Source of the DNA: a cyanobacterium endosymbiont of Rhopalodia gibberula
GTDB lineage: Bacteria; Cyanobacteriota; Cyanobacteriia; Cyanobacteriales; Microcystaceae
Reading direction: 5' to 3'
Length of the DNA: 64,000 bases
Assembly: GCF_003574135.1 (NCBI RefSeq)
Contig: NZ_AP018341.1
Location: 310,001 to 374,000 of the forward strand
Position numbers and translations under genes: made by a program. Below are positions 13,245-46,734 of this stretch, one piece after another; position 1 is the stretch's first letter, and the number at the start of each line of letters is the position of its first letter. The notes beneath the pieces were generated by a model that was given only the letters and a program-made list of their open reading frames with translations, searched no databases and was not told where the DNA came from.

Positions 13245-13720
13245 CATTGATACCATCAAAGAAAACGACGTTTAGAATCCCCTTTCTAGGATATCGGGAT
13301 TTAAAAATGATAGCAGGGAGTCATAGTGTGATTAAGTCGTCTTTATAAAAAAGGATTATTTTTTACGATGTAAGTCTCTAACAGAGAGCATATACATCAC
13401 AAAATACTTCTGCAAAATCAATACAAAATTTTAATTTTATATCTACCCTATCAGACTTGAATGAGATGTTGCTTTTAGAATCAATCTACTACTTACCCTT
13501 ATCTCAAACTTCTGTTGAACTCACATTTTTAAAAAGTCTCCTCTGTCGCTACCTAGGACACTTGTTTTATATGCTGTGTAAAGGTCAAACCTGAATTTTT
13601 CTCCTCTTCTTTATCTTTCTCTATCATTCTCCAAACCCAAACTAATTTTTGAGTTTACTAGGTAAGTCTTAAAGAAGCAAGATATAATTTGTTACAAAAC
13701 AGATTAGAGAAGATTTTGTA
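13245..13720. other. Divergent intergenic region
   Basis: Separates the M16 peptidase (minus) and a small conserved gene (plus), so it must hold two divergent promoters. No gene or strong repeat was recognised. Confidence 0.5.
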
Positions 13721-14035
13721 ATGAGCAACCCCGTCCTTCATGCCTTTTTCTTAGGCCGAGCTTTTGCTGAAGTCCTTAGCGAAAAAATAGAAGAGAACTT
13801 TACTAATGCCCTCAGCGAATTGGGCAGATTTGACGCAGAACAACGCGAACAACTGCGGCAATTTATTGAGGAAGTACAAACAAGGGCTCAAGTTGATGTT
13901 GCATCAGGAGATACTGTTAACACTACCCCCAGTGAAGATTTTTCGGTCGATTTACAAGAAAGAATAGACAATTTAAGGGCTGAAATTGCTCGTGTTAAAG
14001 CGGAATTAAAAATTTATCGTGCCCAAAAAACATAA
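13721..14035 (+). CDS. Small conserved cyanobacterial protein, 104 aa (possibly DUF6825-like)
   Basis: 104-residue acidic, helical protein starting [21 protein letters not shown] with a long predicted helix or coiled coil at the C-terminus ([20 protein letters not shown]). No signal peptide. The [11 protein letters not shown]...[18 protein letters not shown] pattern resembles a conserved cyanobacterial/plastid family of unknown function; the DUF6825 label is from memory and uncertain. It lies 66 bp upstream of the ABC1 kinase gene on the same strand and may be cotranscribed with it. Confidence 0.75.
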
Positions 14036-27704: not shown

Positions 27705-27874
27705 TTAATGTGGTCACACTGAGCAGTTTACACCAAGTATCTTTAGCTAGTTTGAATAAACATTCCACTGTTATAAAGTCCGAAGGAAGTTCTCAAAAAA
27801 TATCTTCCCTTCGGAAAAGATTATTCAGAGATCACTCATACTAAAATGATTCATCAATCTTGGGGATAGAAATT

Positions 27875-29545
27875 ATGGGGGAACCAACAACAGCTGAATT
27901 ACTGGTTGAATGTCTAGAAAATGAGGGAGTAGAATACATCTTCGGACTTCCTGGGGAAGAAAATCTTCATGTTCTCGAAGCATTGAAGCATTCTTCGATC
28001 AAATTTATCACTACTCGTCATGAACAAGGAGCAGCTTTCATGGCTGACGTATATGGACGATTGACGGGAAATCCAGGAGTATGTTTATCGACTCTTGGCC
28101 CAGGAGCAACCAATTTGATGACAGGAGTAGCTGATGCTAATCTCGATGGCGCGCCATTAGTGGCTATCACAGGACAGGTGGGAACTGATCGTATGCACAT
28201 TGAGTCCCATCAGTATCTAGATTTAGTAGCTATGTTTGCTCCAGTAACCAAATGGAACAAACAGATTGTTCGTCCTAGTATTACACCTGAAATTACTAGA
28301 AAAGCATTTAAAATCGCTAAAAGTGAAAAGCCGGGGGCAGTTCACATTGATTTACCGGAAAATATCGCCGCGATGCCTGCTGTTGGGCATCCTCTTAAGC
28401 GGGATAGTCAGGAAAAAACCTACGCTTCTTATCGTAGTTTAAATTCAGCGGCCATGGCTATTTCTAAAGCCAAAAACCCCTTAATTTTGGTGGGAAATGG
28501 AACCATTCGGGCCCAGGCCAGTGAAGCGTTAACAGAATTCGCCACTACCTTAAATATTCCAGTGGTTAATACCTTCATGGGCAAAGGGGTAGTTCCTTAT
28601 ACTCATCCCTTAGCCTTATGGACTTTAGGGTTACAGCAACGGGATTTAATTAGCTATGCCTTTGAAAAGTGCAGCTTAGTGATAGCCGTGGGGTACGACC
28701 TAATTGAATATTCTCCTAAGAAATGGAACCCTGAGGGGACAACCCCTATTATCCACATTGGCATGGAAGCGGCTGAGATTGATAGCAGTTATATTCCTTT
28801 AGTAGAAGTAGTCGGTGACATTTCTGATTCCTTGATGGATATCCTAAAACGGGCTGATCGCCAAGGAAAATCAACAGAGGTTGTGACAGGTTTACGAAAG
28901 GAAATTGTCGCTGATTATAAACAGTATGCTTATGATGAGGGGTATCCCATCAAACCACAAAAGATTATTTATGATTTGCGTCAGGTGATGGGTCCGAAAG
29001 ATATTGTGATTTCTGATGTGGGAGCGCATAAAATGTGGATTGCCCGTCATTATCACTGTGATACTCCAAATACCTGTTTGATTTCTAACGGATTTGCTGC
29101 CATGGGGATTGCTATCCCGGGGGCGATAGCCGCTAAATTGGTTCACCCTGATAAGAAAGTAGTAGCCGTTACAGGAGACGGCGGATTTATGATGAATTGT
29201 CAGGAATTGGAAACTGCTTTACGAGTCGGAACCTCTTTTGTTACCTTGATTTTTAATGACAATGGTTATGGATTGATAGAATGGAAACAACTTAACCAGT
29301 TTGGAGAATCAGCCTTTATTAGATTTAGCAATCCTGACTTTGTTAAATTTGCTGAAAGTATGGGATTAAAAGGATATCGGGTTGAGTCGGCAGCCGACTT
29401 GATTCCTATTTTAAAGACTGCTTTAGAACAAGATGTTCCTGCAGTTATTGATTGTCCCGTTGATTATGGTGAAAATATTCGTTTCTCCCAAAAGTCAGGA
29501 GATTTAAAATCTAAGATGGGCATAGCCAACTCAAGAAGAGATTAA
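27875..29545 (+). CDS. 2-oxoglutarate decarboxylase (ThDP enzyme, acetolactate synthase-like)
   Basis: ThDP-dependent enzyme of 556 residues. The catalytic Glu lies in EYIFGLPGEENLHVLEAL, the FAD/structural region in ITGQVGTDRMHIESHQYLD and the ThDP-Mg motif is GDGGFMMNCQELETALRVG...NDNGYG (GDG to N spacing about 27). The overall sequence looks like acetolactate synthase large subunits, and this clade was long annotated ilvB. The member of this clade next to succinate-semialdehyde dehydrogenase in Synechococcus 7002 was shown to be 2-oxoglutarate decarboxylase, producing succinic semialdehyde for its partner. Here the same pair is 155-170 bp apart on one strand. ATG 27875 is chosen over TTG 27860. 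Residual acetolactate synthase activity is the alternative. Confidence 0.85.
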   Translation: MGEPTTAELLVECLENEGVEYIFGLPGEENLHVLEALKHSSIKFITTRHEQGAAFMADVYGRLTGNPGVCLSTLGPGATNLMTGVADANLDGAPLVAITGQVGTDRMHIESHQYLDLVAMFAPVTKWNKQIVRPSITPEITRKAFKIAKSEKPGAVHIDLPENIAAMPAVGHPLKRDSQEKTYASYRSLNSAAMAISKAKNPLILVGNGTIRAQASEALTEFATTLNIPVVNTFMGKGVVPYTHPLALWTLGLQQRDLISYAFEKCSLVIAVGYDLIEYSPKKWNPEGTTPIIHIGMEAAEIDSSYIPLVEVVGDISDSLMDILKRADRQGKSTEVVTGLRKEIVADYKQYAYDEGYPIKPQKIIYDLRQVMGPKDIVISDVGAHKMWIARHYHCDTPNTCLISNGFAAMGIAIPGAIAAKLVHPDKKVVAVTGDGGFMMNCQELETALRVGTSFVTLIFNDNGYGLIEWKQLNQFGESAFIRFSNPDFVKFAESMGLKGYRVESAADLIPILKTALEQDVPAVIDCPVDYGENIRFSQKSGDLKSKMGIANSRRD

Positions 29546-29613
29546 AAACCGCTATTTTTCTAGTAAAGTACACTGAGCTTTTATTGTAAAATCACTTTAT
29601 GAATCCACCTATC

Positions 29614-30146
29614 ATGACAAACGGTATTTTTCGTCTGGAAATTTTATGGTCTTGTCACTTCAGTAATACTTGGTGAGAAATGGTAGCCCTAGTAGGGGAA
29701 ATTAGTTTTCTTTTAACTGTACTATCAAGCTATTCTAGGATTAGTCTCTTCGTCGTTAGCAACATTAATATACTTCAATCTATTCCTCAAGAAATAACTT
29801 TTCTATTCTATGGGATTGCAGGTTCGGTTTATGAAATCTGTCTCTGGTTTACTATCATTTTAAACATTGGAGGAGGCTATAACGAATTCAATAAGGAAAT
29901 AGAGCAATTAACCATATTTCGCCAGGGTTTTTCTAGCAAAAATCATTGTATCAAATTTAAAGATATCCAAGCTATACGAACTGATGTTTAATAAGGGTTA
30001 AATGTCAAACAAAAACTCTATGTACGGCTGAAGCAATGTAGAAAAATTCCTCGACTCGCACAGAATAATCCATCTCTCTTTCAAAACTAGAAAACCAGGA
30101 AGCTGAATTAGCTTGTTTTTTGGGGTTTCCCCTCCAGGGCTTATAA
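29614..30146 (+). pseudogene. ycf4: Degraded photosystem I assembly protein Ycf4
   Basis: Ycf4 is a thylakoid protein with two membrane spans needed to assemble photosystem I. The relic reads IFRLEILWSCHFSNTW, stop, then an open stretch with both spans (ISFLLTVLSSYSRISLFVV and ITFLFYGIAGSVYEICLWF), the diagnostic IILNIGGGYNEFNKEIEQ, LTIFRQGFSSKN and IKFKDIQAIRTDV, then a stop. In shifted frames follow GLNVKQKLYVRLKQ and the C-terminal SISLSKLENQEAELACFLG ending PLQGL. All parts of Ycf4 can be matched, but an early stop and at least two frame changes break it. The intact cyclophilin gene follows, the same order as ycf4-ppiB (sll0226-sll0227) in Synechocystis as I recall it. Confidence 0.9.
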
Positions 30147-30177
30147 TAATTGCCAACCCTAATATTAGAAAATTGAA

Positions 30178-30921
30178 ATGAAAAACTTACTACAGCGTTG
30201 GTCAACTATTTTAGCTTGTTTAGTTTTAGTTAGTGGTTTACTTTTAACGGGATGTTCTAATCCGTCGGCGACTTCTTCTGATGCCAATACTAGCGAAGAC
30301 TCAACTCGATCAATGCTGACTGGTCAAGGGAATCAATTAGATATGGACAATTATGTTCCTAGACTTGAAGGCAAAGCAATAGTAGAAATGATTATCAAGG
30401 GCTCTTCCGTTACGATTGAAGTCAATGGAAAAGATGCCCCCGTCACCGCCGGAAACTTCGTTGATTTGGTTAACCGCGGCTTTTACAATGGATTAACTTT
30501 CCATCGGGTAGTTAAAGAACCCCAACCTTTCGTTGCCCAAGGAGGAGATCCCCAAGGAACTGGAACCGGTAGTTTTATTGATCCTGATACAAAGAAAACT
30601 CGTTACATTCCCCTTGAGATTAAGTTCGAAGGAGATAAAAAACCTATCTATGGTAGGGTTCTAGGTCGACAAGGAGCTTCTCTTAAAAAACCTGTAGTAC
30701 TGCCCCACACCCGTGGGGCAGTAGCCATGGCTCGCTCTCAAATGCCTGATACTGCCTCTTCCCAATTCTATTTTGCTCTGTCAGACTTAACTTTTCTTGA
30801 TGGAGACTATGCTGTATTTGCTTATGTCACTGAAGGAATGAATACTGTAGATGGACTTAAACAGGGCGATCATATTGATTCAGCTAAAGTAATTTTTGGA
30901 TTAGAAAACCTAAAACAATAA
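30178..30921 (+). CDS. Cyclophilin-type peptidyl-prolyl isomerase, lipoprotein
   Basis: 247 residues. The N-terminus is a lipoprotein signal: hydrophobic [15 protein letters not shown] with the lipobox cysteine at about residue 26, then a Ser/Thr-rich linker, so the enzyme should be membrane-anchored outside the cytoplasm. The cyclophilin domain shows [40 protein letters not shown] and the active-site segment [20 protein letters not shown]. It lies 31 bp after the ycf4 relic, with which it was probably once cotranscribed; it may now depend on a promoter within the decayed ycf4. The reading frame is intact. Confidence 0.93.
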
Positions 30922-45410: not shown

Positions 45411-46734
45411 ATTAGAGGAGTTTCCTTAGTTATTCTCTGAGTATTAGTTGGGGTAATTTTTTGTACTCTACGAACGGAATTTATTGATATTCAGAGGTTT
45501 AAAGACGCTGTCGACATTGCCCTAGATCGATAGGACTATATCCAAGAGAACTCAAAGGGAGAATTAACTTCTTTCTTTCAGGCTTTAGCAACTACTTTAT
45601 ATGCCAGTGTAGAACTAGGAAATATTACTGGGATGGCTATTGCGATCCAACCCAGAGAGCCAGAGGCAGTGTTTTGGATGACCTATAAAGGCAATTTTGG
45701 AAATATAAACTAAATTTATCAAATGTACCTTAGGGCTGAAATATTACATTGTTTATTCTGATGGCACGGTAGTTGGTGGACCGATATACTATTGCATGAC
45801 AGGTTAAATACATTAGGTCAAGCTCAATTGGATAAGATTTTAGCAATTATTTATGGAGTTGCTGGAATTGGGTCAGTTATAGAGGCGGGGAATATGTTCC
45901 AGTCTAATCAATCATTTGCTGTATTAGCCACAATCATTACACAGTTATAAGTATATAATTAGGCTTATAGTCTGAGTTTGGCGGCATTAGCTATATTAGC
46001 ATCGTCACCAGTAAATTAGTCCGAGCAATGGTTGGAGTTTACATTTTACATTTTCAGCTGTGGGTGTTAGAAGTGAATTTTTCAGCGATTCCCAGTCCAT
46101 TTTTATGGTTCATGAGGTTTTTTCTCCTCAGTCTATTGAGGGAAACTGATAAGGGCTTTGGGTCAAGGAGTCCTGCAGTGCCTTTTTTAATGGAGCCGGG
46201 TTTGGGATCAGCGGCGATTGCCCATTCAGTGGACAAGACTTAAAGACCTATTCGAGAGAGAATTATTTCCATCTCAGAGCCGTTTGTTGATACGGTGATT
46301 ATCTGTAATTTAACGGTATTAGTTATCATAATGACAGGAATCTATAGTGACGTAGTGGGAGTAACTATTTATTAGTGGTTCAGTTCTAGCCGTGCTAGCT
46401 TTTGGTTAAGTCATTAATTGAGTTCCTTTTGTTTTAGCTAGGTTATGGGTCTGTTTGCCTTTTCAAGGATGATCACTTGGTGTTATTACGGCGAAAGATG
46501 TTGGGCTTATGTTTTCGGAGAATCGAATCGTCGTACCTTTAAAATTATGTTCCTGATTTTTATCTTTATGGGATCTATTATTAATTTAGAAGTCGTAGTA
46601 AATATTAGTAACATAATGTTATTAACCTTAGTTATTGCTAATATCCTGGATTGTATTTCTTTTTAAGAAAAGTATCTAAAAACTTACAAAAATATTGGCA
46701 AAATTTTAAGTTTAAAGAGATTAAAGTTAAATGA
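45411..46734 (+). pseudogene. Degraded AGCS sodium:alanine/glycine symporter
   Basis: AGCS family members import alanine or glycine with Na+ across the inner membrane. Family landmarks appear in order on the plus strand but in several frames with stops: RTEFIDIQRFKDAVDIAL, FFQALATTLYASVELGNITG, MAIAIQPREPEAVFWMT, a damaged version of the DGTVxGGPMYY motif (45760-45800), EAGNMFQSNQSFAVL, VNFSAIPSPFLW, LGSAAIAHSVDKT, RERIISISEPFVDTVIICN, FAFSRMITWCYYGERCWAYV and the C-terminal KVSKNLQKYWQNFKF tail. Essentially the whole gene is traceable. The open frames at 46028-46243 and 46445-46666 are fragments of it. Confidence 0.9.

Follow-up and report, generated by a model that had tools for sequence, protein, structure and literature searches.

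A decayed ycf4 next to an undamaged cyclophilin gene on the chromosome of the Rhopalodia gibberula spheroid body

The ycf4 locus and its surroundings

The DNA analysed here, referred to as the window, is a stretch of 64,000 nucleotides (G000:C1:310001-374000) from the genome of the nitrogen-fixing cyanobacterial spheroid body of the diatom Rhopalodia gibberula (RgSB, genome G000), which consists of one contig of 3,020,309 bp, the length also published for the RgSB chromosome (PMC5638926, PMC11131595 Table 1). On its plus strand, the remains of ycf4, a photosystem I (PSI) assembly gene, lie between a gene for a thiamine-pyrophosphate-dependent enzyme and a gene for a cyclophilin (Table 1). The Ycf4 profile PF02392 matches across the lesions of this relic, at window positions 29626-30066, with 135.1 bits (E 2.9e-39) against a curated cut-off of 34.7 bits, and one TGA and two TAA codons are found inside the match. 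A chance match is excluded, since the open piece at 29680-29991 gives 100.8 bits by itself. Because no continuous open frame spans the length of the profile, being interrupted by the TGA, a TAATAA, and one frameshift, the locus has to be regarded as a ycf4 pseudogene and not as a ycf4 gene.

The lesions were scored against the intact ycf4 of strain SU2 (G002) as reference. In this alignment, the ATG at 29614 pairs with Met-6 of the SU2 protein, the first ATG being found at 29599, and the old stop codon corresponds to 30144-30146. The sequence-only reading had placed a ycf4 pseudogene at 29614-30146, and the SU2 alignment confirms these coordinates exactly. As it had also stated, the GGGYNEFNKE core and the C-terminus LENQEAELACFLG are still legible, the former in the same frame as the start. 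The C-terminal LENQEAELACFLGFPLQGL lies in a different frame from start and core, after the single frameshift; the announced early stop and frame changes were thus recovered, with two reading frames involved instead of three. A profile search of the chromosome gave one ycf4 match and hence no second copy (G000 does not include the plasmid of about 6 kb that has been described for RgSB), and the relic DNA found no match in a plasmid collection. From its sequence, the locus is almost certainly a plain ycf4 pseudogene that decayed in place in the RgSB chromosome.

Table 1. Features of the ycf4 locus in window coordinates
Feature	Position	Strand	Basis and occurrence
TPP-dependent enzyme, acetolactate-synthase-like	27860..29545	+	Pfam; tblastn in fetched stretches
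ycf4 pseudogene	29614..30146	+	From the SU2 Met-6 position to the old stop; PF02392 profile and alignment to SU2
6-nt in-frame deletion	about 29623	+	RgSB compared with SU2
W28 to TGA stop	29674..29676	+	RgSB; none in G001 or G003; G004 not reliably alignable here
Open piece of 103 aa with the GGGYNEFNKE core	29680..29991	+	PF02392, 100.8 bits, profile positions 22-127
Junction of 12-nt in-frame deletion	29959..29961	+	Present in RgSB, G001, and G003, lacking in G004
TAATAA, codons 137-138	29989..29994	+	Second TAA (codon 138; GAA in SU2) common to RgSB, G001, and G003, not G004
1-nt deletion (-1 frameshift) near codon 156, moving the C-terminus to another frame	30046..30047	+	RgSB only
TATAAT over the old ycf4 stop, possible -10 element	30142..30147	+	36 nt before cyclophilin; four of four symbionts
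Cyclophilin-type peptidyl-prolyl isomerase gene, intact, 247 aa	30178..30921	+	PF00160, E 2.2e-38; dN/dS 0.13-0.21 among symbionts

Three further symbiont genomes serve for comparison, namely G003, the spheroid body of Epithemia turgida (EtSB), G001, probably from E. clementina, and G004, probably the symbiont of the marine E. pelagica, the last two assignments being inferred. Intact relatives include SU2, PCC 8801 (G006), G005, and G013, the last of these being, like G021, apparently UCYN-A-like. The cyclophilin gene behind the relic is clean, as the sequence-only reading had it, and comes behind ycf4, intact or decayed, in each of the eight genomes aligned, 32 nt separating the two genes in SU2. 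The description of an old neighbour therefore holds on this side, the upstream neighbour varying between genomes: the acetolactate-synthase-like gene is found there in RgSB, G001, and G004 and in none of the other five, a pseudouridine synthase gene takes its place in EtSB, and other genes do so in SU2 and PCC 8801. The presence of the acetolactate-synthase-like gene 5' of the relic is thus an arrangement common to three symbionts. A search of genome contigs with the cyclophilin protein gave no spheroid-body record among the matches listed (80 loci).

Over the window as a whole, 28 larger open reading frames are listed, which amount to about 55% of its length (GC 35%), the edge frame 2-1483 on the minus strand being left out. 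Outside these larger frames, 57 stop-to-stop pieces of at least 55 aa were counted; 20 of them were run against Pfam, of which 17 remained unmatched and three matched CrcB, DUF6825, and a sodium:alanine symporter. The DUF6825 frame (13688-14032, plus strand, 115 aa stop to stop), missing from the list of frames of at least 110 aa, covers the whole of this family of unknown function (E 1.6e-36). The symporter piece (46442-46663, plus strand, 74 aa stop to stop) matches positions 297-366 of the 392 positions of PF01235 (E 9.4e-13) and is probably another pseudogene. A search of the window with Rfam at gathering scores found nothing.

Common scars and loss of coding constraint

When 39 genomes, RgSB included, were searched with PF02392, ycf4 was uninterrupted in 34, broken in three (RgSB, G001, and EtSB), and without a match in two (G004 and G007). 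Genome G007 is 78% complete and its psaA and psaB are intact, so that the absence of ycf4 is put down to genome incompleteness. As a control, psaA, psaB, and ycf4 are all intact in the small genomes G013 and G021.

Two lesions of the relic, the 12-nt deletion and the TAA at codon 138, are common to RgSB, G001, and EtSB and therefore predate the split of these three symbionts; in addition, G001 and EtSB have in common a TAG at codon 186. Judged from these scars, the break in ycf4 is not young within the RgSB lineage, which renders doubtful the earlier suggestion that PSI was given up recently. Since the same deletion and the same TAA recur in two other single-contig genomes, the break in RgSB is not an assembly error. 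A living gene whose lesions stem from sequencing or assembly, for which nothing beyond the general possibility of such errors speaks, is extremely unlikely, all the more as the substitutions are without codon-position bias and the core genes of PSI have been disrupted as well.

The relic of G004 is homologous to that of RgSB (blastn E 2.9e-34), yet falls below Pfam detection. In the alignment it has no 5' part (about codons 1-26), and its codons 27-120 align at 0.54-0.60 identity, which is near noise and was used only as an indication that the region is degraded. By contrast, the G004 relic is alignable at both sites of the common lesions and carries neither the 12-nt deletion nor the TAA at codon 138. 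No identical ycf4 lesion was found in all four symbionts: codon 33 is a stop in G001 (TAA) and G004 (TGA), and codon 38 bears an indel in EtSB (-1) and G004 (-2), but these are different lesions at positions where the G004 alignment is poor, and for both reasons they were not counted as common. The first visible lesions that RgSB, G001, and EtSB have in common thus probably arose after their split from G004.

Besides its inactivating lesions, the relic has lost coding constraint. Among RgSB, G001, and EtSB, the dN/dS of ycf4 amounts to 0.69, 0.80, and 0.72, compared with 0.04, 0.12, and 0.12 among three free-living genes, and with 0.15, 0.21, and 0.13 for the neighbouring cyclophilin gene of the same three symbionts. 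In the same line, the variable columns of codons 27-120 are spread over the codon positions as 34/35/34 in the symbionts versus 19/7/49 in the free-living trio, the third-position excess thereby being absent from the relics. Nevertheless, the relic values of 0.69-0.80 stay below 1, which counts against a gene dead since before the split and leaves room for some coding life after it or for a bias of estimation. One could also imagine that a truncated Ycf4, such as the 103-aa piece with its legible core and high profile score, is still made and functional. This is very improbable, as codons 1-137 show a dN/dS of 0.57-0.90 among the three relics, the variable sites of codons 27-120 are even over the codon positions, G001 and EtSB carry other stops and frameshifts within the stretch of this piece, G004 has lost the 5' part, and none of this would help a PSI whose core genes are themselves disrupted.

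The 3' third of the relic

Between RgSB, G001, and EtSB, variable columns are rarer in codons 121-188 (42 of 191) than in codons 27-120 (103 of 281), a gradient with a Fisher p of 0.00077 and a one-sided block-permutation p of 0.0015 that is absent from the free-living trio (56 of 204 versus 75 of 282, p 0.84). However, the split point was picked after seeing the data, and the G001-EtSB pair alone gives a weak gradient (p 0.052). Within the 3' part, variation is distributed as 19/10/13 over the codon positions, hence without third-position excess, so that any constraint on it would be of non-coding nature. The four symbionts agree over the block AGGGCTTATAATRATTGCCAACC (R being either A or G) except at one base.

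One explanation would be that the 3' third has been kept as promoter and leader of the cyclophilin gene: in the free-living SU2 the two genes may form a single transcript, and after the death of ycf4 the cyclophilin gene would have been transcribed from the old ycf4 end. In favour of such a role, a TATAAT is found at -36 relative to the cyclophilin start codon in all four symbionts and within 250 nt in none of four intact relatives (G002, G005, G006, and G013), while further upstream G004 has lost the 5' part of the alignment (about codons 1-26) and the DNA of EtSB is different. Nevertheless, the four symbionts share descent, and the hexamer is common here, with 42 occurrences on the plus strand of the 64-kb window. 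Besides, a consensus promoter scan of 29540-30260 listed no site at the TATAAT; its one site, compared with 2.4 on average in shuffles, lies inside ycf4 (29831-29858). Codons 318-473 of the rbcL relic are equally conserved in the same three symbionts (394 to 417 of 467 identical), a gene that may have died later, and the ycf3 relic gave 0.69-0.82. A promoter role of the 3' third is therefore rather unlikely and only a lead, the TATAAT being perhaps a promoter element.

Loss of photosynthesis genes and comparison with other symbionts

The sequence-only reading took the broken ycf4 as direct evidence that PSI had been given up. Loss of ycf4 alone as a demonstration of PSI loss was rejected: a dead ycf4 is in itself no proof, because a cyanobacterium is able to assemble PSI in the absence of Ycf4. 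Ycf4 was reported to be non-essential for PSI in a cyanobacterium and in tobacco (PMC6015050), the tobacco part being disputed by a later tobacco knockout (PMC9638951), which is in turn disputed in a review (PMC11449065). The loss itself is nonetheless borne out by other genes. In RgSB, psaA/psaB are present as broken fragments only, psaD and ycf3 are broken, D1/D2 gave no match, and a single, broken fragment represents the phycobiliprotein family. RgSB is thus without functional PSI or PSII core genes in the families covered (psaA/B, psaD, and D1/D2), and, as far as gene content tells, PSI is gone from it. Regarding the other symbionts, broken fragments of psaA/psaB are found in G001 and no match in EtSB and G004; psaD is unmatched in all three; ycf3 is broken in G001 and EtSB; and fragments of D1/D2 and of the phycobiliprotein family occur in G001 and EtSB, both being unmatched in G004. 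The ycf3 search of G004 found no clear relic; its matches were all weak, lay in long open frames, and were taken for other TPR proteins.

Further information on the order of these losses comes from rbcL, which has decayed to a relic in each of the four symbionts, with lesions that mostly differ between them. The RgSB relic is comparable only from about codon 268 on, and in this part no lesion is common to RgSB, G001, and EtSB; in addition, G001 and EtSB have none in common over the whole gene, which is nearly full length in EtSB (its 473 codons contain three stop columns, along with five indels). The photosynthesis genes were therefore apparently not all dead at once, and ycf4 was probably dead before rbcL in the RgSB/G001/EtSB group. 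The G004 rbcL has 24 stop columns, many of them where tblastn detects no rbcL. An identical TAA at codon 219 is found in G001 and G004, EtSB having CGA and RgSB being deleted there; this stop was read as a coincidence, although it speaks against two separate losses. As G004 has no match or no clear relic for psaA/B, psaD, and ycf3, these genes provide no test of sharing with it, and a chlP search likewise gave no clear relic in G004.

Since the G004 relic is without both scars of the other three at alignable sites, and no lesion is common to all four, two losses of ycf4 are possible. It is conceivable, if on balance doubtful, that the last common ancestor of G004 and the RgSB/EtSB/G001 group still had a living ycf4, and perhaps PSI, which would imply at least two losses among diatom spheroid bodies, the symbiont having been acquired either once, while still photosynthetic, or twice. 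Either ycf4 died twice in this way, or its first inactivation left no scar that can be seen (promoter, start, or missense), or later decay hid the scar. As for the course of events, selection on PSI would presumably have lapsed in a symbiont living on host carbon, and ycf4 would have been inactivated along the stem lineage leading to RgSB, EtSB, and G001, after which stops and frameshifts would have accumulated separately in each lineage at a roughly neutral pace. That the relic is still there may be due to the slowness of deletion, and perhaps also to an adjoining gene that is still needed.

Since it has already been published that RgSB lost PSI, the finding is largely known and its main claim adds little. 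RgSB was reported to hold 286 pseudogenes and zero functional PSI or PSII genes (PMC5638926), its pseudogenes being counted as 99 elsewhere (PMC11131595), and ycf4 may well be among the 286 listed. The main texts of PMC2246100 and PMC5638926, whose pseudogene lists sit in supplements, do not contain the word ycf4, nor does that of PMC12903740 contain ycf. Among the titles listed in literature searches for ycf4, none deals with the spheroid-body gene. What the common scars may offer is a clock, with the death of ycf4 placed before the RgSB/EtSB/G001 split and the comparable rbcL without a common lesion. Such scars could serve to test whether photosynthesis was lost jointly or separately in the symbionts of marine and freshwater diatoms, and would so have a bearing on whether there was a single acquisition or more than one, a point described as open in PMC12903740.

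Compared with known systems, RgSB resembles the other spheroid bodies of rhopalodiacean diatoms, for which loss of PSI and PSII genes has been described (PMC2246100, PMC5638926, PMC12903740), including psbC and psbD pseudogenes in that of R. gibba (PMC2246100). In SU2 and PCC 8801, the same gene lies directly 5' of the same cyclophilin gene, but as uninterrupted frames (188 aa in SU2) with a dN/dS of 0.04 between the two. The UCYN-A-like G013 and G021 likewise have small genomes and belong to the same family as RgSB, and G013 gave no D1/D2 or phycobiliprotein match; unlike RgSB, both keep psaA/psaB and ycf4 intact, in line with the reported retention of PSI by UCYN-A (PMC11070190).
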